Of a stretch of 54,342 nucleotides of DNA, positions 1-54,342 are shown one piece after another. This stretch comes from a bacterium (GTDB lineage: Bacteria; Patescibacteriota; Dojkabacteria; JAKAPS01; JAJZLI01), in contig DAIDGT010000002.1 in the NCBI GenBank assembly GCA_027459825.1, forward strand, positions 18,288 through 72,629. The letters are read 5' to 3'. The position numbers and the translations under genes were made by a program. The notes under the pieces are model-generated. The model had not been told where the DNA came from and did not search any database. It saw only the letters and a list, made by a program, of their open reading frames with translations. Numbering within the stretch: position 1 is the first letter of the stretch; each line of letters begins with the position of its first letter.

Positions 1-352
1 GAGTACCTATATCATCATTCAAGCTTCGCGAAATCATAGTAACTTTCGCAATCGAAATAATGGAAGGAAGAGCCTCTCCCCTAAAACCAAATGTAGCTAT
101 TTCCATCAAATCTTTTTCCGTGTTTATTTTCGAAGTAGCAAACCTCTTTGCAGAGAGAACCATATCATCTCTAGACATACCAATACCATCGTCATCAATT
201 CGAATATTTATTCCATCAATGCTGACAACAATATTTTTAGCATTGGCATCAAGTGAATTTTCTATCAACTCTTTCAGAATTGAAGATGGTCGCTCTACAA
301 CTTCTCCCGCAGCAATTTTATTTGCAACTTCAATAGGCAAAACACGTATCAT
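1..352 (-). CDS. mutL: DNA mismatch repair protein MutL, N-terminal part (cut by window edge)
   Basis: GHKL-ATPase domain of MutL, the ATP-dependent partner of MutS in mismatch repair. The first ~117 residues are visible. They begin MIRVLPIEVANKIAAGEVVE and carry ATPase motif I (ELIENSLDA, with the catalytic Glu and Mg-binding Asn), motif II (DDDGIG), the TSKI segment and motif III (FGFRGEAL). These are diagnostic of MutL. The rest of the gene lies before base 1. The ATG at 352 is supported by an extended -10 (TGGTATCAT) ending 7 nt upstream. mutS lies upstream on the same strand, one gene away. Confidence 0.95.
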   Translation of the reverse strand, partial: MIRVLPIEVANKIAAGEVVERPSSILKELIENSLDANAKNIVVSIDGINIRIDDDGIGMSRDDMVLSAKRFATSKINTEKDLMEIATFGFRGEALPSIISIAKVTMISRSLNDDIGT

Positions 353-359
353 AATATGG

Positions 360-368
360 ATGATACCA
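360..368 (-). promoter_or_regulatory. Extended -10 promoter element for mutL
   Basis: Minus-strand TGG-TATCAT; the hexamer (365-360) ends 7 nt before the mutL ATG, so the mRNA would be leaderless or nearly so. Confidence 0.55.
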
Positions 369-391
369 TAAAATAGAGTATAAATTTGAAA

Positions 392-1234
392 TTAAATCCA
401 CCCTTTAATAACCAAAAAGCTTACAATAAAAGCTACAAACACGAGTAATACTCCAACTGTTGCAATAGAGTAAAATCCCCTCAATATATCTGATTTGGCA
501 AGGGGATTTCTCCCAATTGATATAGTAGAATTTTTTGCAGATCTGAATATAATTATACCTGCAAAAATAATTGAAGTCATAATAATTATAAAGACAACTA
601 TAAGCTGAGCTAAAGAAATAGGTTTTCCCGAAATAGGAACACCTATTGCAGTAAGAATGGAATTAATAGGACCAGAGGAATTAGCACTAGATATATATTG
701 AACATTAATATCAACAGATATTTCACCTACATATACTGTCGTCTTTCCTCCATTTACAGAATTTACACTATATGAAGAAGCATTCTTACTACTTGAATTA
801 AAATTATCCAAAGCTCTTCCTACTGTATAACCTGATTCACAATACATTCCAACTCCATTAATAGGAGAAGGACAAATATAATCACCTGAGGTAATATTTC
901 CATTTACAGTTGAAACATATGTAAGAACAGTTCCTGATGAAGAAACATAATCAACATTCCCAGTACCATTACTTTGAGTTAAAAAACTAGAATTATCGAC
1001 AACCCCCAGAACTTGCCTATTATTTGAAAGATTTGCTTTCTCTATATATTGACTACCATTTTGAGAATTTACTGAAACCAAGTTTCCAGAAACAATACTA
1101 TTATCTTTATATAAATAACCTACAGCAGTACTAAATGCGAAAACTGGTGATACTAAAAATGCAACATAAACACAAAAAGCTACAAGGAATATAATAATAT
1201 ATAAGATATATGATTTATACTGGATAGTATCCAT
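392..1234 (-). CDS. Membrane-anchored protein of unknown function with a peptidase-G2-like segment
   Basis: Unrecognised gene of about 280 residues between mutS and mutL. An N-terminal membrane segment (about residues 8-30 from this start) precedes a Ser/Asn/Gly-rich extracellular-type region. Two further membrane helices lie near the C-terminus (LIVVFIIIMTSIIFAGIIIF and a second ending VSFLVIKG). The segment around GDYICPSPINGVGMY...GYTVGRALD resembles the turn-rich pattern of peptidase_G2 autoproteolytic or tail-fibre-like domains; I recall this pattern, no search supports it. An ATG at 1276 would add 14 residues. I prefer 1234 because a -10-like TACAAT ends 9 nt before it and the membrane anchor then starts close to the N-terminus. 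Function unknown; a role in DNA repair is not implied. Confidence 0.75.
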   Translation of the reverse strand: MDTIQYKSYILYIIIFLVAFCVYVAFLVSPVFAFSTAVGYLYKDNSIVSGNLVSVNSQNGSQYIEKANLSNNRQVLGVVDNSSFLTQSNGTGNVDYVSSSGTVLTYVSTVNGNITSGDYICPSPINGVGMYCESGYTVGRALDNFNSSSKNASSYSVNSVNGGKTTVYVGEISVDINVQYISSANSSGPINSILTAIGVPISGKPISLAQLIVVFIIIMTSIIFAGIIIFRSAKNSTISIGRNPLAKSDILRGFYSIATVGVLLVFVAFIVSFLVIKGWI

Positions 1235-1243
1235 ATCATCATC

Positions 1244-1249
1244 ATTGTA
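1244..1249 (-). promoter_or_regulatory. -10 element before the membrane protein gene
   Basis: TACAAT on the minus strand, 9 nt before the ATG at 1234. It lies downstream of the alternative ATG at 1276, so it favours the shorter protein. Confidence 0.4.
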
Positions 1250-1292
1250 ATGAATACAATTGTCATTTGCAAACATTTACAGTAATTCTGTT

Positions 1293-3812
1293 TTAATTTA
1301 ATTTAGATTTTAATTCAAGTAATTTATTAAATGCATCAATAGGAGACAAGCTATTTATATCGAGACTATGAAGTTCTTTTTCAATAGAAGAATCATAATG
1401 TTCACCAGAAAATAGATCGTTCTGAACAGAGCTTACTTTATATCCACCTTGCTTTTCAATAAAATTTTTTAATATTTCATTTGCCCGAGATATTACAGCA
1501 TCTGGCACTCCTGATATTTTTGCTACATATATACCATAACTTTTATCAGTCCCACCTTTAACAAGATTACGAAGAAAAATAACTTTTCCTCCTTTTTCCC
1601 GAACATCAACATTAAAATTTTTAATTTTAGGAAACAACTCTTCTAACTTCACAAGTTCATGATAATGAGTAGCAAAAATTGTCTTTGCACCTATTCTTTC
1701 ATATATGTATTCAATAATTGCCCAAGCAATAGAAACACCATCAAATGTTGAAGTACCTCTACCAATCTCGTCAAGAATAATTAAACTCTTAGAAGTTGCA
1801 TTATTCAAAATATTAGCAGTTTCCGTCATTTCAACCATAAAAGTACTCTCTCCTTTGGATAAATCATCTGAAGCGCCAACCCGAGTAAAAATCCTATCAA
1901 TAATAGGAACAACTGCATTTTTTGCAGGAACGAAAGACCCCATTTGTGCCAGTATTGATATAATTGCAGTTTGTCTTAATATACTACTTTTTCCTGACAT
2001 ATTAGGACCTGTTATTACAATAATCCTTTGATCAGAAGAAAATTCAATATCATTTGGAATATACTGATCAGGAAAAATAACATTTTCTATTACAGGATGT
2101 CTACCACCCTCAATTTTCATATTATCATCATCTGTATTAATCTTAGGTTTGTGAAAATTGAGGTATTTTGCAGATATCGCAAAGGACAAAAGTACATCCA
2201 ATGTACCTACAGCATCAGCTACAAATTGAATATATGGTATATATTCTTGAAGCTCTACTTTTAAATTATTATATATATCATTTTCCAATGTAGATATTCT
2301 ACCCTGAGCATTAATAATTAAATCTTCATATTCTTTAAGTTTAGGAGAGATAAATCTCTCAGCATTAACTAAGGTTTGTTTCCTAATATAATCAGAAGGA
2401 ATTTTAGATTTATGTGTATGTGAAACTTCTATATAATATCCAAACACTTTATTATAGTGAACTTTTAAGGAAGGAATACCAAGCTTTTCAATTTCTTCTT
2501 TCTGGAAATTTGTAATCCAACTCTTACCTTGTTCAATTGCATCCTTATATTTATCAAGTTCTACATTAATTCCTTTTTTTATATATCCTCCATCTTTAAG
2601 GAGCATGGGAGAACTTTCATCTATATATTTCCTAATAACCTCTAGTAACTCAAAAAATTTATTCTGAGAAGATATACTATTACTCAAATCTTTTAATACT
2701 CTAGATTGAAATTCCTTCATTTTTGGTAGCAAATTTGCTATTGCATCAATTGATGATGCCAAGGAAAGGAGATCTCTAGGCATTACAGATAATGTTCCTA
2801 TCTTTGCAGATATACGATACATATCAGAAACTAAAGACAGATTTTCGGTGAAAGATTCTCCTGTATTAAGCTTTAAGATTTCCCCAACTCCTTCCAATCT
2901 TTTTTCTATTTCAATGGGATCTAATAAAGGATGAGATAATAAAAACCTTAATTTTCTGGCACCAAGAGAACTAGAAGTCTTATCAATAACAGATATTAAA
3001 GATCCTTTATATGAAAAATCTCTATAAGTTTCAAACAACTCTAAACTTCTTATACAATTTTCGTCTAAAATCATGTAATCAAAAGACTTGAATATTTTTG
3101 GTGGCTTTATATGTAATATTTCGTTTCTTTGGTTATCTTTCACATACTTAATAATTGCCCCTGCAGAATTCAGGGATAAATGAATATCCGGAATACCAAA
3201 ACCTTTTGATGTAGACACTTTGAAATGTGAAAATAAATAGTCTTTATTAAAATAAGGAAATAATGAAGAGCTACTACCTATATTTAGATCAAAACTATCG
3301 TCAACAATAATTTCTTTTGGAGATATAGATGATACAAAGGTTATAAAATCGTCTTTCGATAAAGGGTCATGAATGTAAAAATCACCAGAGGAAAAATCTA
3401 TAAAGGAAGATAGGTAAAAGTCTTTTTTTTTGAATACAGCAAGTAAATAATTACTTTCTCTATTATCATTATCAAGTAAGGAAGTGGATGGAGTGACAAC
3501 CTTAACAATATCTCTCTTAACAACACCTTTTGTAAGTTTTGGATCTTCAAGTTGTTCACATACAGCAACCTTATATCCTGCATCCAGTAGCTTAGCAAGA
3601 TAAGAATCTAAAGCATGATATGGAAAACCTGCCATTGGAGTTTTTTTCTCAGTTCTATCCCTTGATGTCAAAGTAATATTCAAAACCTTAGATGCAACTA
3701 CTGCATCCTTATCAAACATTTCATAGAAATCTCCCATTCTAAAAAGCAAAATAGAATCAGGATTATCTTTTTTTAAAGAGTAATATTGCCCCATTGCCTT
3801 TGTATCTTGCAT
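1293..3812 (-). CDS. mutS: DNA mismatch repair protein MutS
   Basis: 839 residues, normal for MutS1. The N-terminal mismatch-binding domain has the Phe-X-Glu motif (LLFRMGDFYEMF, about residues 23-34), whose Phe stacks on the mispair. The C-terminal ABC-type ATPase has Walker A GPNMSGKSS and the Walker B/signature stretch LIILDEIGRGTSTFDG. MutS recognises mispairs and recruits MutL. The start is fixed by both the usual MutS N-terminus and a TATAAT ending 8 nt upstream. It is divergent from the glycosyltransferase gene across 63 nt. Confidence 0.98.
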   Translation of the reverse strand: MQDTKAMGQYYSLKKDNPDSILLFRMGDFYEMFDKDAVVASKVLNITLTSRDRTEKKTPMAGFPYHALDSYLAKLLDAGYKVAVCEQLEDPKLTKGVVKRDIVKVVTPSTSLLDNDNRESNYLLAVFKKKDFYLSSFIDFSSGDFYIHDPLSKDDFITFVSSISPKEIIVDDSFDLNIGSSSSLFPYFNKDYLFSHFKVSTSKGFGIPDIHLSLNSAGAIIKYVKDNQRNEILHIKPPKIFKSFDYMILDENCIRSLELFETYRDFSYKGSLISVIDKTSSSLGARKLRFLLSHPLLDPIEIEKRLEGVGEILKLNTGESFTENLSLVSDMYRISAKIGTLSVMPRDLLSLASSIDAIANLLPKMKEFQSRVLKDLSNSISSQNKFFELLEVIRKYIDESSPMLLKDGGYIKKGINVELDKYKDAIEQGKSWITNFQKEEIEKLGIPSLKVHYNKVFGYYIEVSHTHKSKIPSDYIRKQTLVNAERFISPKLKEYEDLIINAQGRISTLENDIYNNLKVELQEYIPYIQFVADAVGTLDVLLSFAISAKYLNFHKPKINTDDDNMKIEGGRHPVIENVIFPDQYIPNDIEFSSDQRIIVITGPNMSGKSSILRQTAIISILAQMGSFVPAKNAVVPIIDRIFTRVGASDDLSKGESTFMVEMTETANILNNATSKSLIILDEIGRGTSTFDGVSIAWAIIEYIYERIGAKTIFATHYHELVKLEELFPKIKNFNVDVREKGGKVIFLRNLVKGGTDKSYGIYVAKISGVPDAVISRANEILKNFIEKQGGYKVSSVQNDLFSGEHYDSSIEKELHSLDINSLSPIDAFNKLLELKSKLN

Positions 3813-3820
3813 AATTTAGG

Positions 3821-3826
3821 ATTATA
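3821..3826 (-). promoter_or_regulatory. -10 element for mutS
   Basis: Minus-strand TATAAT, 8 nt before the mutS ATG. A weak -35 (TTGTAA, 3850-3845) lies 18 bp upstream of it. Confidence 0.6.
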
Positions 3827-3832
3827 TCGTAA

Positions 3833-3846
3833 AAGTAAATTTACTT
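3833..3846. repeat. 14-bp perfect palindrome between divergent promoters
   Basis: AAGTAAATTTACTT reads the same on both strands. It sits between the outward-facing -10 elements of mutS and the glycosyltransferase gene. It could be an operator or a chance AT-rich palindrome. Confidence 0.35.
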
Positions 3847-3855
3847 ACAAACTTA

Positions 3856-3864
3856 TGTTATAAT
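3856..3864 (+). promoter_or_regulatory. Extended -10 for the GT2 gene
   Basis: TGT-TATAAT; the hexamer ends 11 nt before the ATG at 3876, predicting a leader of only a few nucleotides. Confidence 0.6.
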
Positions 3865-3875
3865 TTGGGCATCTT

Positions 3876-5360
3876 ATGTCAAACATTTCTATGAATAGGC
3901 TAAAAAGGCGTGATAGGATATATCAAATGATCCCAGGACTTATGCTATGGGGAGGTATTTTTATTATGTTTTTTCTATCATTCACATACCCAACTGTACT
4001 AATATATCTTGTTATACTTTACATAACATACTTTGTATATCAATCTATTAGTACATTAATACTAGTATTTAAAGCCAATAAAAAGATATTGGAGGTAAAA
4101 TCTACTGACTGGGAAACAAAGTTAACTGAAGAATTTGGGAATGCGTGGAAAGATTATTACCAGGCCTTATTAATTCCTATTGCAAATGAAGGAGAAGACA
4201 TTGTACTCCCAACAGTTGAGGCGGCATCTAAAATTGCATATCCCAAGGATAGAAAAATAATAATATTCGCAACTGAGAAAAAATATGAGAATGGAGCAAA
4301 AATGGCAGACAAGTTAAAAAAAGAATATTCTCAAAGTTTTGGAAAGATAATAATCAGCACACACACACTAAAAGAAGGAGAAATCCCTGGGAAAGCATCA
4401 AATGAAAACTACGCTGCCAGAGAAGTATACGATGTACTGACCAAGGATAATATAGATACAAGCAAAGTTATACTTACAAGTAATGACGCTGATTATAGAC
4501 ATGAGAAGAATTATTTTGCTTACTTAACCTATACTTACCTTAAAACAGAAAACAGTAGATCAACTATCTTTCAACCAATTCCAATTTTTTATAACAATAT
4601 ATGGAAAGTATCTATAGTCTCAAGAATTATTGCTACATTTGCTGCACAGTGGCAAATGGCGATTACATTTAAACCAGAAAGATTTATCAATTTTTCATGT
4701 TATGCTCTAAATTTAGAATCATTAAGACAAATAGGATATTGGGACGCAAATATCATACCAGAAGATGAGAGGTTATTTTGGAAAGCTATTATAGCATTTG
4801 GTGATGACACACAAGTTATACCTCTTTACATACCGGTTTATGGGGATGCAGTTCTAACAGATACTTTTTGGGGAAGTATTAAAGAGCAATACAAACAACT
4901 TAGAAGATGGGCATGGGGAGCATCAGAAATGTCATTTAGTATTCCAAATGTAGTAACACATAAAAAGATATCCAAGAGTAGAAAATTTTCACTTATATCT
5001 CAACAACTAAGAAATTCATTTGAAAGGGCAATGACACCAATAATCATCACTTTTGGTGATATACTTCCACTACTAAATTCTCATTTTCAAAAATTATCAC
5101 TATCATACACCATTCCAACATTCATAAGTCGCCTAATGACAATAACAACACTAGCAATTATAATTATATTAATATTTGAAGCAAGATTAGCACCACACAA
5201 GAATGATAAAAATATATTAAAAAGATCATTTTCATATATGGGATGGATAACATATCCATTAGTTAGTATAATATTTTCATCAATTCCTGCAATTGATGCG
5301 CAAACAAGACTTTTATTTGGGAAAAATATACAATATGTACCTACAGTAAAAAAGACTTAA
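3876..5360 (+). CDS. Membrane glycosyltransferase, GT2-like (processive-synthase type)
   Basis: 494 residues. Two N-terminal membrane helices (about residues 20-65) are followed by a cytoplasmic catalytic domain and more helices at the C-terminus. Motifs fit GT2 enzymes of the cellulose/hyaluronan-synthase group: an Asp-X-Asp (SNDADYRHEKNYF) for nucleotide-sugar/metal binding, PEDERLFWKAI as the catalytic acid region, and QLRRWAWG as the Q-x-x-R-W motif. It probably makes or modifies a surface polysaccharide; substrate unknown. The convergent neighbour makes GDP-mannose, so a mannosyl donor is conceivable (inference). Its TAA overlaps the neighbour's stop codon. Confidence 0.85.
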   Translation: MSNISMNRLKRRDRIYQMIPGLMLWGGIFIMFFLSFTYPTVLIYLVILYITYFVYQSISTLILVFKANKKILEVKSTDWETKLTEEFGNAWKDYYQALLIPIANEGEDIVLPTVEAASKIAYPKDRKIIIFATEKKYENGAKMADKLKKEYSQSFGKIIISTHTLKEGEIPGKASNENYAAREVYDVLTKDNIDTSKVILTSNDADYRHEKNYFAYLTYTYLKTENSRSTIFQPIPIFYNNIWKVSIVSRIIATFAAQWQMAITFKPERFINFSCYALNLESLRQIGYWDANIIPEDERLFWKAIIAFGDDTQVIPLYIPVYGDAVLTDTFWGSIKEQYKQLRRWAWGASEMSFSIPNVVTHKKISKSRKFSLISQQLRNSFERAMTPIIITFGDILPLLNSHFQKLSLSYTIPTFISRLMTITTLAIIIILIFEARLAPHKNDKNILKRSFSYMGWITYPLVSIIFSSIPAIDAQTRLLFGKNIQYVPTVKKT

Positions 5361-6430: not shown

Positions 6431-6579
6431 AGAGAATAAGTTTTAAGTTTATCACTACAGATAATATATTACAACATTAAAAAAACAACACATATAACCT
6501 AGAGTATAAAACATGATATTTATTCAGATACTTATTTCCTAAACATTAAAAATCATTTGAAAATAACAACTTATTATTA

Positions 6580-6585
6580 TAGAAT
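6580..6585 (+). promoter_or_regulatory. -10 element for ileS
   Basis: TAGAAT ending 7 nt before the ATG at 6593. It overlaps the upstream in-frame ATG at 6584, which would therefore not be on the transcript. Confidence 0.5.
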
Positions 6586-6592
6586 GTGTCAT

Positions 6593-9478
6593 ATGAAATT
6601 CAAAAGCATGGAGTCCATTCCTGACTTCAAAAAAATTGAAGAAGAAACATTAAAGTTTTGGAAGGACAACAAGATTTTCCAGAAAAGTTTAGACAACCGA
6701 AAAGATAGTGATAAGTACGTTTTCTATGATGGACCACCATTTGCAACAGGGTTACCACATTATGGACATCTTACACAAGGAACAATCAAAGACATTATTC
6801 CCAGATATCATACGATGAAAGGAAAATATGTAGAAAGAAGGTTTGGATGGGACTGTCATGGACTTCCAGTAGAGTATGAACTTGAAAAGGTCAAAGGAAT
6901 AAAAAATAAAAAAGAAATAGAGGATATGGGCATAGACATATTTAATGAATCATGCAGAAGCATTGTTCAAAAATATGTTGAAGAATGGAGGATATTTGTA
7001 GAAAGGATGGGTAGGTGGGTAGACATGGAAAATGATTACAAAACCATGGATTTACCTTTTATGGAAAGCGTATGGTATGTATTTAAAACACTCTATGACA
7101 AGGGACTTATATATGAAGGTTACAAAAGTATCCATATATGCCCAAGGTGTGCAACCCCACTTTCTAATACAGAAGTACAAATGGGATACAAAGATCTTGA
7201 AGATTCATCCGTTATAGTAAAATTTAAACTTGAAGATGAAAATAAATATATGCTCGCATGGACAACAACTCCATGGACCCTACCTGCAAATGTATTACTA
7301 GCAGTATCTAAAAATATAAAATACTCAGAAGTAGAGCACAATGGGGAAGCGTATATTGTCGCTAAAAGTAGGATAGAATATATATTCGAAAACCTCGAAT
7401 ACAGAGTCATTAAAGATATCAACATAAATGATTATATAGGTAAAAAGTACACACCTATGTTTGATATCTCAAAGCTAGAAGATATAGATAGTACAAAAGG
7501 ATGGTTTATTGCCGAAGCAAATTTTGTAGAAGAAAATGAAGGAACAGGAATAGTACATATAGCCCCTGCATTCGGAGAAGAAGACATGCTTGTTGGGAAA
7601 AAGTTGGAGGCTCCTGTCATAAGACATATAGATATACAAGGAAAATTTGGAGAATACCCAATGATGGAGTGGGCAGCTGGAGAAGCAAGATTACTCAACA
7701 AAGACATTATTGAATTTCTACAGAATCAAAATATACTACTTAAAGTTTTAAAAATAGTACATTCATACCCCCACTGTTGGAGGTGCGATACACCACTACT
7801 AAACTATTCAATGGAGTCTTGGTTTGTAAATGTACAAAAAATAAAGTCAGAAACACTAAAAAATAACGAAAAAATATACTGGTTTCCAAAACATTTAAAA
7901 GAAGGACGATTTAAAAACGGATTAGAAAATGCACCTGACTGGGCAATCTCACGAAACAGGTACTGGGGAACACCTATTCCTGTATGGAAGTGTAATAGTT
8001 GTTCAAATGTTAAAGTTATAGGATCTAAGAATGAGTTAGAAGAGTTGTCATCCAAAAAAAACATTACTGATATACATAGGCACTTTATTGATAAATTAGA
8101 GATAAAGTGTGACAAGTGTGAAAAAGGAATAATGCATAGAATACCAGAGGTATTAGACTGTTGGTTTGAGTCAGGGTCTATGCCATATGCGCAAAAACAT
8201 TATCCATTTGAAAATAAAGAAGAGTTTGAAAAGAATTTTCCAGCAAATTTTATAGCCGAAGCAATAGATCAAACAAGAGGATGGTTCTATGTATTACATA
8301 CAATATCAACAGCACTACATGGGACAGCAGCATTTCAAAATGTAATAGTAACAGGGCTAGTCCTAGCAGCTGATGGACAAAAAATGTCAAAGTCAAAAAA
8401 GAATTATACCGATCCTATGGATATTATAAATACATATGGAGCAGAAGCACTCCGTATCTATTTAATAAAATCTCCTCTAGTAAAAGGAGAAGATTTAATG
8501 TTTAAAAATGAAGGGATAAGGGAAGTTGTTAAGGAAATAATGGTTCCTTTCTACAATATAGTAAAGTACTTCACCATATATGCAAATCTATTTAATTTTA
8601 AAGAAAGTGAGAAAGAAAGCGACCATTTACTCGATCAATGGATTATTTCTAAAACAGAAAATTTTGTCATACAACTTGAAGAGTATTTACAATCGTATGA
8701 CCTAATGGGGGCAACATCCATTATTCAACCATACATACAAACCTTGTCAACAGAGTACATAAGAAGATCAAGAAATAGATTTGTAAATGGAGATAAGGAA
8801 GCATTATCCACATTATATAAGGTTTTATTAAAGTTTACTCTTTCAATTGCGCCTGTAATGCCTTTTATATCAGAATATGTATATAAAGAATTGAATGGTA
8901 ATAAAGAAAGTGTACATTTAGAAGATTACCCTAAAACATCAAGTAACCTTTACAATAAAGACCTTGAAGAAATAATGGAAATTGCTCAAATTGCAATTAC
9001 AGATATACAGAATATAAGGGTGGAAAATTCTATTAAATTAAAACAACCAGTAAAAGAAGTATTTATAAACTATGACAAGATAAATAAATCTGAACTAAAA
9101 CAAGATATTTTATATATAATTAAAGATGAGGTAAATGCTAGAAAAATCTCTACAACAACAAATAAGACATTTAAATCAAAAGATAATATCCATGGATCAA
9201 CAGGAGTTGATATATCAATAGATGAGGACATATTACAAGATACAACAAAAAGAGAAATAATCAGAGCAATTCAGACAATAAGAAAAGAATCTGGTTATAA
9301 TATAGAAGATATAGTTGATTGTACGATTTCATCGCCAAGTGATAACATCAAAGCTGTGTTAGAAAAATTTAAAGATGAAATTTCAAAAGCGACAAAATTA
9401 AAAAACTTAATAATTTCAGATAATACAGGAAAAAAGGTTATTATAGATAACCAAGAAGCTACTATCTCTATAAAATGA
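6593..9478 (+). CDS. ileS: Isoleucyl-tRNA synthetase, eukaryote/archaea-like (type 2)
   Basis: About 961 residues. Class Ia synthetase charging tRNA-Ile. The HIGH motif appears as HYGH in PPFATGLPHYGHLTQGT and is followed by RRFGWDCHGLPVEYE, the arrangement of the eukaryotic-type IleRS2 rather than the usual bacterial type. The KMSKS loop is intact (DGQKMSKSKKNY). The central editing domain (WTTTPWTLPAN) and anticodon-binding C-terminus are present. In-frame starts also exist at 6557 (TTG), 6584 and 6608; I chose 6593 because of the -10 at 6580. The stop TGA overlaps the next gene's ATG, so translation is likely coupled. Confidence 0.95.
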   Translation: MKFKSMESIPDFKKIEEETLKFWKDNKIFQKSLDNRKDSDKYVFYDGPPFATGLPHYGHLTQGTIKDIIPRYHTMKGKYVERRFGWDCHGLPVEYELEKVKGIKNKKEIEDMGIDIFNESCRSIVQKYVEEWRIFVERMGRWVDMENDYKTMDLPFMESVWYVFKTLYDKGLIYEGYKSIHICPRCATPLSNTEVQMGYKDLEDSSVIVKFKLEDENKYMLAWTTTPWTLPANVLLAVSKNIKYSEVEHNGEAYIVAKSRIEYIFENLEYRVIKDININDYIGKKYTPMFDISKLEDIDSTKGWFIAEANFVEENEGTGIVHIAPAFGEEDMLVGKKLEAPVIRHIDIQGKFGEYPMMEWAAGEARLLNKDIIEFLQNQNILLKVLKIVHSYPHCWRCDTPLLNYSMESWFVNVQKIKSETLKNNEKIYWFPKHLKEGRFKNGLENAPDWAISRNRYWGTPIPVWKCNSCSNVKVIGSKNELEELSSKKNITDIHRHFIDKLEIKCDKCEKGIMHRIPEVLDCWFESGSMPYAQKHYPFENKEEFEKNFPANFIAEAIDQTRGWFYVLHTISTALHGTAAFQNVIVTGLVLAADGQKMSKSKKNYTDPMDIINTYGAEALRIYLIKSPLVKGEDLMFKNEGIREVVKEIMVPFYNIVKYFTIYANLFNFKESEKESDHLLDQWIISKTENFVIQLEEYLQSYDLMGATSIIQPYIQTLSTEYIRRSRNRFVNGDKEALSTLYKVLLKFTLSIAPVMPFISEYVYKELNGNKESVHLEDYPKTSSNLYNKDLEEIMEIAQIAITDIQNIRVENSIKLKQPVKEVFINYDKINKSELKQDILYIIKDEVNARKISTTTNKTFKSKDNIHGSTGVDISIDEDILQDTTKREIIRAIQTIRKESGYNIEDIVDCTISSPSDNIKAVLEKFKDEISKATKLKNLIISDNTGKKVIIDNQEATISIK

Positions 9479-10758: not shown

Positions 10759-10762
10759 TATC

Positions 10763-10771
10763 TGATATAAA
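10763..10771 (+). promoter_or_regulatory. Extended -10 within the operon, before the FtsW-like gene
   Basis: TGA-TATAAA; the hexamer ends 6 nt before the GTG at 10778, which would be exactly leaderless. It may give an internal transcript for division genes. Confidence 0.45.
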
Positions 10772-10777
10772 TTAAGA

Positions 10778-12986: not shown

Positions 12987-12993
12987 GTTTATC

Positions 12994-13002
12994 TGGTATA
13001 AT
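12994..13002 (+). promoter_or_regulatory. Extended -10 for trhO
   Basis: TGG-TATAAT ending 12 nt before the ATG at 13015; predicts a leader of about 5 nt. Confidence 0.6.
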
Positions 13003-13014
13003 ATCATTCATATT

Positions 13015-15930: not shown

Positions 15931-15936
15931 ATTATA
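15931..15936 (-). promoter_or_regulatory. -10 element for glyA-folD
   Basis: Minus-strand TATAAT, 9 nt before the glyA ATG. The sequence from the -10 to the start closely resembles that of mutS (TATAATCCT followed by an AT-rich run). Confidence 0.6.
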
Positions 15937-18111: not shown

Positions 18112-18140
18112 AGAATAGGAAAATTCAGACAAAAAGTCAA
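18112..18140 (-). promoter_or_regulatory. Promoter for pyrG with -35 and -10
   Basis: Minus-strand -35 TTGACT (18140-18135), 17-bp spacer, -10 TATTCT (18117-18112), ending 12 nt before the pyrG ATG. It is the best two-box promoter I found here. Confidence 0.6.
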
Positions 18141-18162: not shown

Positions 18163-18171
18163 TGATAGGAT
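18163..18171 (+). promoter_or_regulatory. Extended -10 for the DUF192 gene
   Basis: TGA-TAGGAT ending 6 nt before the GTG at 18178. Confidence 0.45.
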
Positions 18172-19090: not shown

Positions 19091-19099
19091 TGGTATAAT
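19091..19099 (+). promoter_or_regulatory. Extended -10 for the gene at 19109
   Basis: TGG-TATAAT ending 9 nt before the ATG. Confidence 0.6.
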
Positions 19100-21586: not shown

Positions 21587-21592
21587 ATACTA
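21587..21592 (-). promoter_or_regulatory. -10 element for the first DedA gene
   Basis: Minus-strand TAGTAT, 6 nt before the ATG at 21580. Confidence 0.35.
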
Positions 21593-21642: not shown

Positions 21643-21651
21643 TGATATAAT
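21643..21651 (+). promoter_or_regulatory. Extended -10 for the zinc-ribbon/tig/clpP operon
   Basis: TGA-TATAAT. It overlaps the ATG at 21650, which therefore cannot be the start of this transcript; the next in-frame ATG is 21665, 13 nt after the hexamer. Confidence 0.6.
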
Positions 21652-23709: not shown

Positions 23710-23715
23710 TAAAAT
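23710..23715 (+). promoter_or_regulatory. -10 element for the second DedA gene
   Basis: TAAAAT starting 6 nt after the tRNA-Val 3' end and ending 7 nt before the ATG at 23723. Confidence 0.45.
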
Positions 23716-26136: not shown

Positions 26137-26142
26137 TATAAT
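26137..26142 (+). promoter_or_regulatory. -10 element for the gene pair at 26151
   Basis: TATAAT ending 8 nt before the ATG at 26151. Confidence 0.55.
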
Positions 26143-27195: not shown

Positions 27196-27234
27196 AATTG
27201 GCATTATAAAGCACTTTACAAAGGGAATAATCTT

Positions 27235-27243
27235 TGATAACAT
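27235..27243 (+). promoter_or_regulatory. Possible extended -10 for infC, giving a ~40-nt leader
   Basis: TGA-TAACAT. Transcription from about 27250 would leave a leader containing GGTAATAATTATTAACC (27264-27280, a near-palindrome) and an AAGG just before the proposed AUU start. This contrasts with the leaderless genes. The leader may be regulatory; no known L20- or IF3-type element was recognised. Confidence 0.3.
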
Positions 27244-27291
27244 TGCTAAATATTAATTTAGTAGGTAATAATTATTAACCAACAAGGTAAA

Positions 27292-27798
27292 ATTCATTTC
27301 AGATATAGATATAATGACTATATTAGTAGCCCTGAACTAAGAGTAATAGCTGAGGATGGAAAGTTTTTAGGTATACTAAAAAGGGCAGAAGCACTACAGT
27401 TAGCAAGGGAGAAAGAGCTCGATTTAATTGAGATTTCTCCAAATGCAAACCCTCCTGTAGCAAAAATAATGTCATACTCTAAATTTAAGTATGAACAGAG
27501 CAAAAAGGAGAGAGAGGCTAACCAAAAGTCAAAACATAAAGAAATGAAAGAGATGAGATTTAAGCCATTCATTGGGTTGGGTGACTTTACTCATAAGATA
27601 AACCAGGTAAGACAATTTTTAGAAGAACAACATGGGGTAAAAATTGTTATACGATCAATTGGTAGAAGTACAAGACAACAAGAACAAGAATTAATTGACA
27701 GAATTATTGCAGGTACTTCAGATGTAGGTGGGGTAGAATCAACTCCAAGAAAGGAAGGAAGAAGCACAATATTTCAAATAAGACCAACAAAGAAATGA
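27292..27798 (+). CDS. infC: Translation initiation factor IF-3, non-canonical AUU start
   Basis: About 168 residues, the usual IF-3 length. The N-domain is evident (YNDYISSPELRVIAEDGKFLGIL, LDLIEISPNANPPVAKIMSYSKFKYE) and so is the C-domain (MRFKPFIGLGDFTHKINQV, IGRSTRQQEQE). The frame is open from 27265 and holds no ATG, GTG or TTG before 27469, which is inside the conserved domain. A non-canonical start is therefore needed. I propose ATT at 27292, preceded by AAGG; ATT at 27271, 27274 or 27322 are alternatives. E. coli infC also uses AUU, for autoregulation. ATGA overlap with rpmI. Confidence 0.88.
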   Translation: MHFRYRYNDYISSPELRVIAEDGKFLGILKRAEALQLAREKELDLIEISPNANPPVAKIMSYSKFKYEQSKKEREANQKSKHKEMKEMRFKPFIGLGDFTHKINQVRQFLEEQHGVKIVIRSIGRSTRQQEQELIDRIIAGTSDVGGVESTPRKEGRSTIFQIRPTKK

Positions 27799-38811: not shown

Positions 38812-38817
38812 TATAAT
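38812..38817 (+). promoter_or_regulatory. -10 element for rpmF
   Basis: TATAAT immediately before an in-frame ATG at 38818, which it excludes as the start; it ends 9 nt before the ATG at 38827. Confidence 0.6.
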
Positions 38818-38826: not shown

Positions 38827-39003
38827 ATGAGTGCACTTCCAAAAAGAAGAATTTCACATTCAAGAAAAAATAATAGAAGATCTCACCATTCTTTGAAACC
38901 AATTAATTTGGTTTCATGCCCTAATTGTAGTGCAAAAATGTTGCCACATAATGCATGTAATAACTGTGGACAATACAATGGAAAAACCGTGCTACCTATA
39001 TAA
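38827..39003 (+). CDS. rpmF: Ribosomal protein L32
   Basis: 58 residues from MSALPKRRISHSRKNNRRSHH, the characteristic L32 N-terminus, with a zinc ribbon CPNCSAKMLPHNACNNCG that keeps all four Cys. A start at 38818 (MRVMSAL) is possible in frame but directly abuts the -10 and would not be transcribed. First gene of an rpmF-nusB-rnc-rpsP run. Confidence 0.95.
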   Translation: MSALPKRRISHSRKNNRRSHHSLKPINLVSCPNCSAKMLPHNACNNCGQYNGKTVLPI

Positions 39004-39004
39004 T
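38999..39004 (+). promoter_or_regulatory. -10 element for nusB
   Basis: TATAAT overlapping the rpmF stop codon and ending 8 nt before the nusB ATG. Confidence 0.45.
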
Positions 39005-39420: not shown

Positions 39421-39427
39421 AAAATTC

Positions 39428-40316: not shown

Positions 40317-40325
40317 CTCTAATTA

Positions 40326-41567: not shown

Positions 41568-41573
41568 GGTAGA

Positions 41574-42626: not shown

Positions 42627-42629
42627 ATA

Positions 42630-43010: not shown

Positions 43011-43018
43011 ATAGCACT

Positions 43019-43027
43019 ATTATAACA
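43019..43027 (-). promoter_or_regulatory. Extended -10 for cheY-like-pilMNO
   Basis: Minus-strand TGT-TATAAT, hexamer ending 8 nt before the ATG at 43010; separates this unit from the upstream pilus genes. Confidence 0.6.
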
Positions 43028-43035
43028 AAATTAAA

Positions 43036-45648: not shown

Positions 45649-45658
45649 ACTTCTATTT

Positions 45659-45686
45659 ATTATATACTTGACTACAAAAAAATCAA
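45659..45686 (-). promoter_or_regulatory. Promoter for the 870-residue surface protein
   Basis: Minus-strand -35 TTGATT (45686-45681), 16-bp spacer, -10 TATAAT (45664-45659), ending 10 nt before the ATG at 45648. It lies just past the previous gene's stop. Confidence 0.5.
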
Positions 45687-45687
45687 A

Positions 45688-47051: not shown

Positions 47052-47055
47052 AAAA

Positions 47056-47862: not shown

Positions 47863-47896
47863 TTATATCATTGAAATCATATAAAAATTTAAAATC

Positions 47897-48553: not shown

Positions 48554-48567
48554 TTATATTACCAATA

Positions 48568-49386: not shown

Positions 49387-49394
49387 ACTACCTA

Positions 49395-49403
49395 AGAATA
49401 ACA
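49395..49403 (-). promoter_or_regulatory. Extended -10 for pilD
   Basis: Minus-strand TGT-TATTCT just downstream of the pilin terminator and 8 nt before the ATG at 49386, restarting transcription for pilD. Confidence 0.45.
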
Positions 49404-49422
49404 TATAAAAATAGAAATATAT

Positions 49423-49456
49423 ATAAAAAACAAGGGCTACAAAATGTAACCCTTTG
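49423..49456 (-). terminator. Intrinsic terminator after the major pilin gene
   Basis: Minus strand: stem CAAAGGGTTACA / TGTAGCCCTTG (one bulged A, one G-U) with a short T/A loop, followed directly by TTTTTTATAT. It lies 32 nt after the pilin stop and is the only convincing terminator I found in the window. Confidence 0.8.
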
Positions 49457-49487
49457 TCTATTTACTAAATAGTCTAAACACATCCTG

Positions 49488-50147
49488 TTAAAACCCAGTA
49501 CATGTTATAGTGTCACCTCCTGCAAATGTAATAGAATTACCACTTTGAGTAAAATTTGCATCAGTACTATTTGCAGTATATGCAAAAATTCCATTATTTT
49601 CCAAACATGCACCTACGATATAGGCATCAACAGCAGAAGGACTAGTCTTGTTAGGAGTTGTCCCTACAAATGGAATATAGAAATACTGTGTTGAATTACT
49701 AATAGATGAACTTCCAGTCATAATAGAACTAGCATTATAGGAAGTAGTCGTATCAGTAACAGACAACCCTGCTGGAGTTTGAGTACTATTACATGAAGTT
49801 GCTCCAACAGAAGGATTATAACCAGATCCTGCAGGATCAATTGTTGCGGCACAAATAATAGAATTTGTCGATTGAGCATTAACAATTGTCTTTCCAGGAG
49901 CAATTAATGATAAATACCCATTAGCAGTATCAAGAGACCAATTATTAGGATAAGTTTGGCCATTATTACCGTAAAATGTTTCAAACAGTCCAGCCATACC
50001 CTTAACAGCAGTTTCTCTTGCATTATTTCTTGCATCAGCTTGTGCTGCTCCAAGACCAATAATTGCAACTGCCATAAGAATACCTATTATCACCATAACG
50101 ATTAAAAGTTCTACAAGAGTAAAACCTTTCTTATTTTTTACCATCAT
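49488..50147 (-). CDS. Major type IV pilin
   Basis: 219 residues. MMVKNKKG^FTLVELLIVMVIIGILMAVAI with Glu5; conserved N-terminal helix and a Ser/Thr-rich globular domain ending with a Cys pair (GACLENN and TITCTGF) as in pilin D-regions. Inferred to be the major subunit because the gene has the only full Shine-Dalgarno seen here, a likely own promoter, and a terminator after it. It sits between pilC and pilD. Either of the first two ATGs can serve; 50147 is 7 nt from the SD. Confidence 0.92.
   Translation of the reverse strand: MMVKNKKGFTLVELLIVMVIIGILMAVAIIGLGAAQADARNNARETAVKGMAGLFETFYGNNGQTYPNNWSLDTANGYLSLIAPGKTIVNAQSTNSIICAATIDPAGSGYNPSVGATSCNSTQTPAGLSVTDTTTSYNASSIMTGSSSISNSTQYFYIPFVGTTPNKTSPSAVDAYIVGACLENNGIFAYTANSTDANFTQSGNSITFAGGDTITCTGF
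49999..50080 (-). repeat. 82-bp identical block shared by two pilin genes (copy 2)
   Basis: Second copy of the block at 48414-48495, within the major pilin gene. Confidence 0.9.
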
Positions 50148-50154
50148 ATTTATT

Positions 50155-50162
50155 CACCTCCT
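50155..50162 (-). promoter_or_regulatory. Strong Shine-Dalgarno for the major pilin
   Basis: AGGAGGTG on the minus strand, 7 nt before the ATG. It would pair over its full length with the usual 16S rRNA 3' end. No other gene start here has a comparable site. Confidence 0.9.
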
Positions 50163-50183
50163 ATTTACAGATACACTATATAA

Positions 50184-51401
50184 CTATTTTATAACATTTC
50201 CAAGCGTATATATTGGAAGATATACAGATATCCCAATAAATCCAACAACAACACCCAAAAATATAGTTATTATAGGTTCCATAATTTTAGATAAATTGTC
50301 TATTAGGCTTGCAGTCTCAGATTGATAATATTCAATAACCTTACCAACAACTTCTTCCATTTTACCTGTTTGTTCTCCAATAGCAACCATCCTCCATAAT
50401 AGAGGAGGGAAGTATTCTATCTGAGACATAACAGAAGAAATTGATCTACCCTTTTCAACCTCACCTGCTATATACCTAATACTTTCTTTAAAAACAACAT
50501 TTCCCATAGAATCTGCTATCATATTTAATCCACGAACAAGGGGCACACCAGATTTAACAAGTAGTATAAATGTTCTACCGAAACTAATTATTTGTAACTT
50601 CTGGAGTAGAGAACCTATTATAGGGATTTTTAAAAATATTTTATCTGTTACTTCTCTTCCCTTTGGAGTACTTCTATACCATATAGCAAGTATTGCTATC
50701 ACGACTAAAGCTATAACTATATATACCCAATATGCAATAACGAAATTACTAAAATTAATTAATATCTGGGTTGGTGCAGGAAGGTTAGCATTAAAACTAG
50801 CATATAACCCCTTCATAGGAGGGATCATTTTAGTTAAAACAATCGCAATTGCAACAATAGCAACACTAATAACAATAATAGGATACATCATCGCACTTTT
50901 AAACTTAGAGATTAAATCACTGGCTCTCTCTGTTTCGGTTGCAATCCTATCCAGGATATAATCCAGAGATCCTGATGCCTCAGCCGTTCTAATTAGCTGA
51001 ATTTGCATTTCAGAAAAAAGTTGAGTGTGGGGTGCAAAAGAATCCGAGAGGCTCTTACCAGATTCAACAGAAAACCCAACCTCTTTTAATATACTTTTTA
51101 AACCTCCATTAGTAACCTGAGCTTGAGCTATATTAATTGCTTCAACAATTGGAATACCGGAAGAAATTAAAACTGAAAGCTCCCTAAAAAAGATTACTTT
51201 GTCCTTGATAGGAACTTTACCAATATTTATATTATTTAAATTCGAGAAATTGAAATTAAAGGCAAAACCTTGCCTTATCTTCAAGGGAGACAACCCCTGA
51301 GATATAAGCATATTTGCAACAGTATCTCTATCTGCCGCACTAAAATTTCCTTTTACAATCTTACCATCTTTATCAGTTGCAGTATAAGTAAAATTTGCCA
51401 T
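50184..51401 (-). CDS. pilC: Type IV pilus inner-membrane platform protein PilC
   Basis: 405 residues. T2SS protein F family. N-terminal MANFTYTATDKDGKIVKGNF is typical, then two repeated GspF domains: FRELSVLISSGIPIVEAI with SGSLDYILDRIA, and GRTFILLVKSGVPLVRGLNMI with GEQTGKMEEVVGKV. Three membrane helices, the last near the C-terminus. It couples the PilB/PilT motors to pilin polymerisation. Two bases separate it from pilT. Confidence 0.95.
   Translation of the reverse strand: MANFTYTATDKDGKIVKGNFSAADRDTVANMLISQGLSPLKIRQGFAFNFNFSNLNNINIGKVPIKDKVIFFRELSVLISSGIPIVEAINIAQAQVTNGGLKSILKEVGFSVESGKSLSDSFAPHTQLFSEMQIQLIRTAEASGSLDYILDRIATETERASDLISKFKSAMMYPIIVISVAIVAIAIVLTKMIPPMKGLYASFNANLPAPTQILINFSNFVIAYWVYIVIALVVIAILAIWYRSTPKGREVTDKIFLKIPIIGSLLQKLQIISFGRTFILLVKSGVPLVRGLNMIADSMGNVVFKESIRYIAGEVEKGRSISSVMSQIEYFPPLLWRMVAIGEQTGKMEEVVGKVIEYYQSETASLIDNLSKIMEPIITIFLGVVVGFIGISVYLPIYTLGNVIK
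50188..50196 (-). promoter_or_regulatory. Candidate extended -10 for the major pilin
   Basis: TGT-TATAAA within the last codons of pilC. Transcription from about 50181 would give a ~34-nt leader carrying the Shine-Dalgarno. Confidence 0.45.
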
Positions 51402-51403
51402 TT

Positions 51404-52468
51404 TTATTCCGTTCTACCTCTAAATAACCTCAAAACTTCATCAGGATGAGAAGAATAACCTTGAGCATCATCTATTGTAATCTTACCTTCCCTAACAAGA
51501 GAAACCAATGACTTCTCAAGAGAAATCATTCCAAGATCACCACTAGTCTGAATCACATTATCCAATTGATATGTTTTACCCTCTCTTATCATATTTTTAA
51601 CTGCACCAGAGGCAAGAAGTACTTCATAAGCTAACCTTCTACCTCCACCGATAACAGGCAAAAGTCTCTGGGAAACAATTCCTTCAAGTATATCTGCAAG
51701 CTGCATTCTAATTTGAGCCTGCTGTATATCAGGAAAAACATCAATAATCCTATCTATAGTTTGTGCAGCACTATTTGTATGCAAGGTAGCAAATACCAAG
51801 TGACCTGTTTCTGCAATAGTGATAGTTGAAGCTATAGTTTCAAAATCTCTCATTTCTCCAACTAGAACTACTTCAGGATCCTCTCTTAATGCACTTCGTA
51901 GAGCAATATCCCAAGAGTGTGTATCTTCACCGACTTCCCTTTGCTCTATAAGAGATTTACCCTGTGGATATACATATTCAATTGGATCTTCGATAGTAAT
52001 AATATGTTTCGCATCTATAGCATTAATTTCTTGTATTAGAGCTGCAAGAGTAGTTGATTTACCATGTCCAGTTGGCCCAGTCACCAAAACAAGCCCTTGA
52101 GGAAGCTTGGTAAACCGATGCATTATATCAGGGAGCATCAAATCTTCTATTGATCTAATTTTTGAAGGAATTAACCTTAAGGCAAAAGATAAATGACCTT
52201 TCTGATGAAAAACATTTATTCTGAACCTATCCTGAGACTCTTTATATTCATATGAAAAATCTATTTCTTTGTTAACATCTAGAAATTCTTTCTGAGCAGG
52301 AGATAGAAGGGTATCAACAAAACCCTTCAATGTATTTTCATCCAATATATTATTAGATGCATTAACCAAATTACCATCAACTCTAATTAATGGGGGATAA
52401 CCAAACACAAGATGTAAGTCAGAGGCTTTTCTTGAAATAGTTAATTTGAGTAATTCCTGTATATCCAT
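51404..52468 (-). CDS. pilT: Pilus retraction ATPase PilT
   Basis: 354 residues. Hexameric secretion ATPase. Walker A GPTGHGKSTTLAAL, Asp box TIEDPIEYVY, Walker B VVLVGEMRDFETI, His box FATLHTNSAAQTIDRIIDVFP. The C-terminal NMIREGKTYQLDNVIQTS corresponds to the AIRNLIRE retraction motif, which separates it from PilB. It powers pilus retraction and twitching motility. It starts 9 nt after pilB. Confidence 0.95.
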   Translation of the reverse strand: MDIQELLKLTISRKASDLHLVFGYPPLIRVDGNLVNASNNILDENTLKGFVDTLLSPAQKEFLDVNKEIDFSYEYKESQDRFRINVFHQKGHLSFALRLIPSKIRSIEDLMLPDIMHRFTKLPQGLVLVTGPTGHGKSTTLAALIQEINAIDAKHIITIEDPIEYVYPQGKSLIEQREVGEDTHSWDIALRSALREDPEVVLVGEMRDFETIASTITIAETGHLVFATLHTNSAAQTIDRIIDVFPDIQQAQIRMQLADILEGIVSQRLLPVIGGGRRLAYEVLLASGAVKNMIREGKTYQLDNVIQTSGDLGMISLEKSLVSLVREGKITIDDAQGYSSHPDEVLRLFRGRTE

Positions 52469-52477
52469 ATAATCTAA

Positions 52478-54223
52478 CTAAATTTCTTCTTTTGCTACAC
52501 GATAAACTTCTTCAATAGTAGTAACTTGATTCAAAACTTTAAAAAATCCATCTTGAACCAGAGATAACATTCCATTCTTTTTTGCTACTGCATCAATTTC
52601 ATCTGCAGAAGATTTCTTTAAAATAAGGGATCGTATTTCTTCATTAACTACCAAAACCTCAAAAATACCAATTCTACCGAAATATCCAGTATTACCACAA
52701 ACATCACATCCCTTACCTTTGTATAAATATAGCATTTCCTTTTTGCTTTGTGAAGATTCAAAATATTTTGAGATATCTATATTACTACCTTTAAAAGAAT
52801 TTTTAATCTCAGAAATTATAGATTCAGGCACTTCATACTTTTCTTTACACGCAGAACATATTTTTCTAACAAGTCTTTGGGCTACAATAACCTCAACAGT
52901 TGATGAAATCAGAAATGCTTCAATACCCATATCAAGAAGTCTAGGAAGTGCACCTGAAGCAGATGTAGTATGTATTGTAGATAAAACCAAATGACCGGTT
53001 AAGGAAGCTTGCGTAGCAAGCCTTGCAGTCTCTTCATCTCTAATCTCTCCTACCATTATTATATTAGGATCTTGTCTTAAAAAAGCTCTAAGACCAGAAG
53101 CAAAAGTTAAACCAACTTCATCATTAATTTGTACCTGATTAACACCATCTATTTCAATCTCAACAGGATCCTCTAAAGTAACAATATTAACTTCAGGACT
53201 ATTTAAAAATGATAGAGCAGAAGCCAAGGTTTGAGTTTTTCCTGACCCTGTAGGCCCAGTAATTAAAATTATACCTTTAGTTAAACCTAGACTCTTCTTA
53301 AACTCATCATATGCACTCCCCATCATACCCAAATCCTCAAGCTTTGAAATACCTGTTGTTTTACGTAACAGTCTAATAACAATTTTTTCACCATATACAA
53401 CGGGGAGTGAAGAGACTCTTAGGTCAACAATCTCTTGACCAACTTTGATACCAAATCTACCATCCTGAGGAATTCTTTTTTCATCAATTTTCAATTTAGA
53501 CAATATTTTAATCCTAGATACAACAGCAGGAGATAAAGCGACAGGAACCTCTAGTTTTTCAAGAAGAATTCCATCAATTCTATACCTAAATTTTAAAGTA
53601 TTCTTTGTAGGTTCTATATGAACATCAGAAGCTCTAAACTTTACAGCATACTCAAGAACAGTATTTACGATTTTTACTATTGGGGCATTTTTTATTTCAG
53701 AATTCAATGTACTTCCTAAATCCTGCATACTACCAGTAACATCTTCAATATTAAAATCCTGATTAGCCTCTTGCACATCTTCAATAACATTAGTTTCAAT
53801 CTGAGAAGATGTATTTGTGTCTATTATTGAGATAATTTGGTCAGGAATAGATAAAAAAGGTGAAATTATTATTTTATATTTCTGCTGTAGATAATTTACA
53901 AGCTGAATATCAAAAGGATTCTTCATTGCAAGAAGAATTTTGTTATCTTCTCTGCCAAAAGGAAGTACTATGTGTTCTTTAAGTTCTGTTACGGGGATAG
54001 TATTAAAAATATCCCTTGAAATATTAACTCCAGCTAGATCCTTAAACTGAACATTTTCAGCTACAGCCTTAGCCTTAAAAAAATCTATTTGAGATACAAT
54101 CTTGGATTTTTGTAATATAGATTCAACATCAGTGTTACTAGTAATAGCATCAATTCTAATCTGATTAACACTTTTCTGATCAATCTTTCCTTGAGAGAGA
54201 AGTACATCTAATAAATCCATCAC
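52478..54223 (-). CDS. pilB: Pilus extension ATPase PilB
   Basis: 581 residues. N-terminal MshEN-like domain (about residues 1-150), then the GspE/PilB ATPase: DVHIEPTKNTLKFRYRIDGIL, Walker A GPTGSGKTQTL, Walker B IIMVGEIRDEETA, and the zinc-binding CSACKEKY...CDVCGNTG that marks assembly ATPases. It drives pilus polymerisation. First gene of the locus. GTG at 54223 or ATG at 54220 can start it; a TATAAA ends 6 nt before the GTG. Confidence 0.95.
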   Translation of the reverse strand: MMDLLDVLLSQGKIDQKSVNQIRIDAITSNTDVESILQKSKIVSQIDFFKAKAVAENVQFKDLAGVNISRDIFNTIPVTELKEHIVLPFGREDNKILLAMKNPFDIQLVNYLQQKYKIIISPFLSIPDQIISIIDTNTSSQIETNVIEDVQEANQDFNIEDVTGSMQDLGSTLNSEIKNAPIVKIVNTVLEYAVKFRASDVHIEPTKNTLKFRYRIDGILLEKLEVPVALSPAVVSRIKILSKLKIDEKRIPQDGRFGIKVGQEIVDLRVSSLPVVYGEKIVIRLLRKTTGISKLEDLGMMGSAYDEFKKSLGLTKGIILITGPTGSGKTQTLASALSFLNSPEVNIVTLEDPVEIEIDGVNQVQINDEVGLTFASGLRAFLRQDPNIIMVGEIRDEETARLATQASLTGHLVLSTIHTTSASGALPRLLDMGIEAFLISSTVEVIVAQRLVRKICSACKEKYEVPESIISEIKNSFKGSNIDISKYFESSQSKKEMLYLYKGKGCDVCGNTGYFGRIGIFEVLVVNEEIRSLILKKSSADEIDAVAKKNGMLSLVQDGFFKVLNQVTTIEEVYRVAKEEI

Positions 54224-54229
54224 TCTAAA

Positions 54230-54235
54230 TTTATA
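54230..54235 (-). promoter_or_regulatory. -10 element for pilB
   Basis: Minus-strand TATAAA, 6 nt before the GTG at 54223; the -10-to-start sequence closely resembles that before ftsW (TATAAATT followed by AGAGTG). Confidence 0.45.
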
Positions 54236-54276
54236 CTACAAATTTATACTTTTTTAAACACCAAACTTTTCTAATA

Positions 54277-54285
54277 TGATAGAAT
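54277..54285 (+). promoter_or_regulatory. Extended -10 for the gene at the right edge
   Basis: TGA-TAGAAT ending 8 nt before the ATG at 54294; divergent from pilB. Confidence 0.45.
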
Positions 54286-54293
54286 AACAAAAG

Positions 54294-54342
54294 ATGTCAC
54301 AAAGTATAATTTTTCAAACACAAAATGAAGCTGATTTGGATA
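54294..54342 (+). CDS. Start of an unidentified gene, cut by the window edge
   Basis: Open frame reading MSQSIIFQTQNEADLD at the window end. Supported by an extended -10 at 54277 with the spacing seen at other genes here. Too short to identify. Confidence 0.5.
   Translation, partial: MSQSIIFQTQNEADLD

Follow-up and report, generated by a model that had tools for sequence, protein, structure and literature searches.

In a bacterium with a 0.76-Mb genome, whose phylum is characterised by very small genomes, roughly half of the genes that open a transcription unit carry an extended -10 promoter element just upstream of the start codon, and Shine-Dalgarno (SD) pairing occurs at chance level. The starting point was a stretch of 54,342 nucleotides (nt), hereafter the window, which spans bases 18,288-72,629 of contig 2 in a draft genome of 763,742 bases (32 contigs, 89.75% complete, 30.6% GC). 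For this window, an initial annotation had listed 22 start codons with a -10 hexamer 6-13 nt upstream. We consider it probable, at about 85%, that sigma-70-type extended -10 promoters give leaderless or near-leaderless messages as the commonest kind of unit start in this genome, with translational coupling in operons and SD pairing for few genes.

Position, form and conservation of the start-proximal box

Genes were called genome-wide with a dicodon model blind to upstream sequence, and dinucleotide-preserving shuffles of the upstream regions served as control. First genes of transcription units (unit-first starts, n = 385) and operon-internal genes were scored separately. An exact TATAAT lies 5-13 nt before 64 of the 385 unit-first starts, against a mean of 15.2 and a maximum of 27 in 500 shuffles; the effect thus stands in the composition-matched comparison that had been proposed as a check. 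When the start of the longest ATG-initiated open reading frame (ORF) is taken for every gene, the hexamer is present at 94 of 684 starts (18.6 in shuffles), but at only 7 of 629 next in-frame ATGs. Starts carry the box approximately 10-20 times as often as ATGs of any other class in the genome, and the excess is found only at 6-14 nt.

The bases around start-proximal TATAAT hexamers are T in 59% and G in 40% at -3/-2, compared to 31% and 15% for TATAAT inside genes, with T in 57% at -5 and a modest excess of -35 elements (39 vs 23 with at least 4 of 6 matches). From these features, the start-proximal box is an extended -10 promoter element, and the TG flank that had been remarked upon in the window is enriched genome-wide.

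Occupancy was estimated from a mixture model with the fitted extended -10 matrix (TaTGaTATAAT), and posteriors of individual sites come from a genome-trained model. Since free-parameter expectation-maximisation on 200-kb samples also fits shuffles, only fixed-model or shuffle-calibrated figures are used here. A box at a gap of 4-14 nt is fitted at about 48% of unit-first starts, 11% of operon-internal starts and 3% of shuffles, and at 70% of the genes located 26-60 nt behind a same-strand neighbour; the unit-first preference also holds on exact boxes (Fisher p = 2e-4). Unit-first occupancy falls from 0.48 at 4-14 nt to 0.08 at 15-25, 0.13 at 26-36 and, further out, no more than about 0.02, and boxes at leaderless or near-leaderless distance are therefore the largest detectable promoter class of unit-first genes. 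Compaction is not the cause, as occupancy near the start remains at 0.41-0.43 in intergenic gaps longer than 150 nt. The dense architecture first proposed thus applies to about half of the unit-first genes, but not to the other half, which have no detected box, nor to most operon-internal ones. The latter cluster at a 4-nt overlap (68 starts) and within 10 nt of the upstream stop codon, which fits coupled re-initiation.

The distance from a -10 box to the first transcribed base is usually 6-8 nt, and leaders of 0-7 nt would result from the gaps observed here, as had been predicted together with a peak at 6-9 nt. Most gaps indeed lie at 6-10 nt, and 6-8 nt is commonest among confident boxes (51 of 112), but the distribution is broad (4-14, mainly 5-14 nt), so many leaders would be 1-7 nt long rather than zero. 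In this regard, ATT directly precedes ATG in 12 of 23 boxed genes with gaps of 11-12 nt, compared with 56 of all 385, which would fit a transcription start at A(-3). T accounts for about 65% of the bases at -1 of unit-first starts, and G for about 4%.

For the comparisons with other genomes, G000 denotes the window's own genome, G001 a member of the same genus, and families are numbered (f1, f6, f18). Among same-genus orthologs (median protein identity 89%), 20 of 23 keep the box at 4-14 nt, against 6.3 in shuffles, and only 3 of 27 orthologs of genes without a box carry one. At 55% protein identity (G005) the signal is weak, with 8 of 20 orthologs against 4.4 expected; individual pairs retain the box at a changed gap. 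The same pattern is present in relatives of the class and in G042. Across 117 genomes of the phylum (those sampled measure 0.5-2.0 Mb), TGnTATAAT-N5-9-ATG occurs 1949 times against 336 for the reversed control pattern; 69 of the 117 are individually significant and none is significant in the opposite direction. As an outgroup, 80 MutS loci from other phyla show SD sequences and no box. Within the phylum, G085 uses SD without the box, and SD pattern enrichment ranges from 1.13 fold in the window's class to 4.2 in G085 and 6.2 in G130; SD usage and box usage vary independently across the phylum.

By far the most extreme box signature of the 117 genomes belongs to G123 (family f18, approximately 0.7 Mb), with 156 exact matches against 4 for the control; its relatives G044 (35 vs 3) and G134 (17 vs 3) are much weaker. 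The gap is 6 nt in 59 of the 99 matches listed for G123, and 56 of those 59 have a pyrimidine at -1, which is what one would expect with +1 at the A of ATG.

With regard to the identity of the host, uL1 is present and no match to bL9 was found in the 0.76-Mb genome. Loss of uL1 and bL9 is lineage-specific in Patescibacteria, the candidate phyla radiation (CPR) (PMC12641178), and the host probably belongs to a lineage of this group.

Shine-Dalgarno pairing and the genes that retain it

The 3' end of the 16S rRNA reads GAATCACCTCCTTT and contains CCUCC, so the anti-SD is intact. Good SD pairing energy is nevertheless at chance in G000, both at unit-first starts (0.06 vs 0.06 in shuffles) and at operon-internal ones (0.11 vs 0.14), and five relatives of the class behave alike. 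Applied to G085, the identical test gives 0.48 vs 0.19 and therefore does detect SD usage. SD tetramers at operon-internal starts (33 vs 23.6 ± 4.3) may be slightly in excess. Boxes at 20-40 nt were also considered as marking a classical, SD-leadered class; this was rejected, as only 1 of 11 such genes has an SD. The scarcity of SD sequences reported for the window is thus confirmed. SD-independent initiation as the default is consistent with it, with the reservation that a near-perfect SD persists on about a dozen genes.

Within the called set, a near-perfect SD precedes five starts, against 0.4 expected: those of HU, bL12, ATP synthase subunit c (AtpE) and two pilin-like proteins. One of the latter provides the counter-example in the window, with AGGAGGTGA at 50154..50162 on the minus strand before the pilin-like gene 49488-50147 (N_methyl by Pfam), which starts at 50147. 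Searching the genome with the extended complement of the 16S tail brought further genes to this set, among them those for bS21, Hsp20, a secreted-looking protein, a 91-aa protein with a cysteine motif and a 66-aa membrane-like protein. Genome-wide, such extended runs are not above control words (140 vs 143-219), and only those before intergenic starts are therefore meaningful. Judging from these sequences, SD pairing has not been lost but is retained on about 12 genes, mostly for proteins that are presumably abundant; other bacteria require several of the products in large numbers.

Within the genus, the SD is kept on AtpE, bS21, one pilin and the 66-aa protein. For HU it is conserved across families: GGAGGT-N4-9-ATG precedes the gene in 22 of 54 class genomes with HU (5 of 5 in f1, 16 of 21 in f6), and HU accounts for 22 of the 51 matches of this pattern in the class.

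Two of these genes deserve separate mention. Upstream of rpsU, which encodes bS21, TTTAGGAGGTGA is present in both genus members, G000 and G001 (G000:C11:3077-3103 and L185:7396-7422), with GGAGG and ATG an unusually long 14 nt apart; this extended SD recalls bS21 autoregulation in Flavobacteriales. A Bacteroidia-like bS21 is unsupported by sequence, since the protein aligns best with E. coli-type chains and the Flavobacterium chain 7jil was matched only over residues 3-46. The membrane-like protein of 61-66 aa (G000:C10:24340, G005:C2:99108) has a near-perfect SD across the family, in genomes otherwise devoid of SDs; its G000 copy has no Pfam match.

Proposed mechanism, alternative explanations and known systems

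Taken together, these findings suggest a model in which promoters are so placed that transcription would begin at the start codon or 1-7 nt before it. RNA polymerase would start on the A of the ATG, or on a purine shortly before it, approximately 6-8 nt after the box, and the ribosome would then recognise the 5'-terminal AUG together with initiator tRNA instead of an SD. Operon-internal genes would mostly be translated by coupling to the upstream stop codon, and SD pairing might act as a special booster on the 12 or so genes that keep it.

Several observations weigh against this model. That the messages are leaderless is deduced from DNA sequence, and the breadth of the gap distribution implies that a share of them would have a short leader rather than none. 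Approximately half of the unit-first genes lack a confident box, and only 112 of 385 reach a posterior of 0.8. A preference for T at -1 exists inside operons too (73% at starts 1-10 nt after a stop codon), and this base alone cannot prove that +1 is at the ATG. Finally, IF3, bS21 and an S1-like protein are all encoded, so the ribosome shows no visible specialisation for leaderless messages.

An AT-rich genome may yield TATAAT-like words near any start, and starts may have been picked to fit them. In shuffles the loose motif turns up at about 15 of 51 window starts, several of the starts on the list are alternative ATGs and 5 of the 22 sites have a low posterior. Chance is refuted genome-wide, however, by the 4-7 fold excess of exact TATAAT over shuffles at motif-blind starts, its confinement to 6-14 nt, its absence from next in-frame ATGs and its conservation in orthologs; it stands only for individual weak sites and, as a general account, is extremely improbable. 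Somewhat less remote, yet still quite improbable, is that the element is a translation signal in a leader, of the S1 or Bacteroidota type, with transcription starting further upstream. Bacteroidota are known to have AT-rich start regions without an SD, the present genome encodes an S1 homolog, and T at -1 and A-richness extend to operon-internal starts. Against this idea, the motif is a base-specific extended -10 and not merely AT-rich, a second box further upstream is uncommon, and the box is four times more frequent at unit-first than at operon-internal starts, which is unlike a translation signal.

Two further explanations were considered. The boxes could be promoters of messages that mostly have functional leaders of 3-7 nt and do not start exactly at the AUG. 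The broad gap distribution and the ATT trinucleotides at gaps of 11-12 nt speak in favour, but the preponderance of gaps of 6-8 nt among confident boxes and the sharp gap of 5-6 nt in G010 and G123 make this unlikely as the general rule. Likewise doubtful, and compatible with leaderless initiation, is a Bacteroidia-like arrangement: the anti-SD would be sequestered on the 30S platform, bS21 would regulate its own synthesis through the extended SD on rpsU, and the loss of usable SDs would have driven the shift to leaderless messages. An intact anti-SD, SD pairing at chance, the presence of bS21 and the rpsU SD in both genus members are in line with this notion, and in Flavobacterium sequestration by bS21/bS18/bS6 goes together with an extended SD on rpsU (PMC9976891). 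The bS21 alignments described above argue against it, as do the SDs on HU, AtpE and bL12, given that rpsU alone keeps one in F. johnsoniae (PMC9976891). As a tentative and rather unlikely extension of the leaderless model, leaderless initiation might be the default throughout the class and SD pairing a reserved regulatory channel: the anti-SD would normally be unavailable, and a small extended-SD regulon (HU, AtpE, bL12, bS21, Hsp20, pilins) would be switched by ribosome composition, for example by ribosomes lacking bS21.

Leaderless genes with an adjacent -10 box are already known (PMC3160421, PMC12340547, PMC9581028), as are SD-scarce bacteria with an intact anti-SD (PMC10783764, PMC9976891). 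The initial annotation had drawn its comparison with actinobacteria, Deinococcus and archaea, and the host is none of these. In Deinococcus-Thermus, approximately a third of genes have a -10 motif a few nt upstream as a leaderless promoter (Zhong 2025, PMC12340547; Zheng 2011, PMC3160421); the placement resembles that observed here. There, however, the motif takes the form TAnnnT at 6-7 nt and GGAG ribosome-binding motifs abound as well (PMC12340547, PMC3160421), in contrast to the full extended -10 at 4-14 nt and the chance-level SD of this genome. Actinobacteria and the genomes that GeneMarkS-2 classes as leaderless (21.6% of bacterial species, cited in PMC9581028) likewise mix leaderless unit-first genes with other starts; unlike here, they also use SD for other genes. 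No mention of Patescibacteria was found in the literature consulted on these two groups. Low GC and a TG or extended -10 near the start are shared with leaderless genes of Lactococcus and of Mycoplasma, which belong to different phyla, the latter averaging 18.3% leaderless genes (PMC3160421).

SD-scarce bacteria with intact CCUCC comprise Bacteroidota and some Mollicutes (PMC10783764, PMC9976891), and they share with this genome the intact anti-SD, the chance-level SD and the extended SD on rpsU. Here, by contrast, a promoter box replaces the leader and the SD is also found on HU, AtpE, bL12, Hsp20 and pilins. The CPR lineages SR1, Campbellbacteria, Wolfebacteria and Peribacter are tabulated as lacking CCUCC (PMC10783764, PMC9976891), whereas this genome has it. 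What appears to be new is the combination of a near-default leaderless pattern with scarce SDs and a retained anti-SD. Our literature search, which left subscription journals mostly uncovered and is thus not proof of novelty, found no report of this combination, or of a leaderless default, for the phylum. If the model is true, much of a very large and almost uncultured radiation starts translation in a manner not modelled by gene finders tuned to SD, and many annotated starts may consequently be wrong. Leaderless initiation and SD pairing would moreover be separated gene by gene in one small cell, and the defined set of SD-retaining genes allows one to ask what SD pairing does when it is not the default.

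Individual boxes in the window

All 22 listed hexamers are present at the gaps given for them, 11 as exact TATAAT and 10 with TGn directly upstream. Of the 22, 13 have a posterior above 0.8, four lie at 0.66-0.76 and five are weak (1234, 18099, 21580, 26151 and 39013). The loose motif used for the list, tested as TAnnnT with at most 2 mismatches, or TATAAA, 6-13 nt upstream, matches 26 of 51 motif-blind window starts against 14.8 ± 2.9 in shuffles, and exact TATAAT 10 of 51 against 1.46 (at most 4 in 200 shuffles); chance accounts for part of the list. Seven listed starts (1234, 6593, 18099, 21665, 38827, 49386 and 54294) differ from those of the motif-blind caller. Four of them (1234, 18099, 21665 and 49386) are alternative starts, possibly picked with the motif in view, whereas start 6593 is plausible, given that its box is overlapped by the ATG at 6584 further upstream.

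On the plus strand, the strongest boxes are tataat (TGT) at 3859..3864, 11 nt before start 3876 (posterior 0.99); tagaat at 6580..6585, 7 nt before ileS at 6593 (IleRS named from its translation; 0.94); tataat (TGG) at 12997..13002, 12 nt before start 13015 of a UPF0176 rhodanese (Pfam; 0.98); taggat (TGA) at 18166..18171, 6 nt before GTG 18178 (0.83); tataat (TGG) at 19094..19099, 9 nt before 19109 (0.99); tataat (TGA) at 21646..21651, 13 nt before ATG 21665, the alternative to 21650 (0.98); tataat at 38812..38817, 9 nt before a 61-aa ORF at 38827 not called as a gene (0.95); and tagaat (TGA) at 54280..54285, 8 nt before ATG 54294 of an ORF cut by the contig end (0.99). Those on the minus strand are tatcat (TGG) at 360..365, 7 nt before 352 (0.98); tataat at 3821..3826, 8 nt before the mutS start 3812 (MutS by Pfam; 0.98), which forms a divergent pair with 3859..3864 within a 63-nt gap; tataat at 15931..15936, 9 nt before the glyA start 15921 (SHMT by Pfam; 0.97) and inside the 17-nt gap to the upstream gene; tataat (TGT) at 43019..43024, 8 nt before 43010, response-regulator-like from its translation (0.96); and tattct (TGT) at 49395..49400, 8 nt before ATG 49386, the alternative to 49404 (0.89).

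Intermediate posteriors were obtained for tataaa (TGA) at 10766..10771 (+), 6 nt before GTG 10778 (0.70), taaaat at 23710..23715 (+), 7 nt before 23723 (0.68), tataat at 45659..45664 (-), 10 nt before 45648 (0.76), and tataaa at 54230..54235 (-), 6 nt before GTG 54223 (0.66). Among the weak sites, tacaat at 1244..1249 (-), 9 nt before 1234, an internal ATG of the ORF 392-1276 (0.25), and tattct at 18112..18117 (-), 12 nt before 18099 of pyrG (0.13), are probably chance matches. The remaining three are tagtat at 21587..21592 (-), 6 nt before 21580 (0.22), with a better box 30 nt upstream; tataat with a poor flank at 26137..26142 (+), 8 nt before 26151 (0.28); and tataat at 38999..39004 (+), 8 nt before the nusB start 39013 (NusB by Pfam; 0.37).

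Finally, infC, encoding IF3 (27230-27798, plus strand), has no ATG, GTG or TTG upstream of its conserved N-terminus. Its start is likely AUU (or AUA), as occurs in other bacteria, and the ORF list consequently truncates the gene at 27469.

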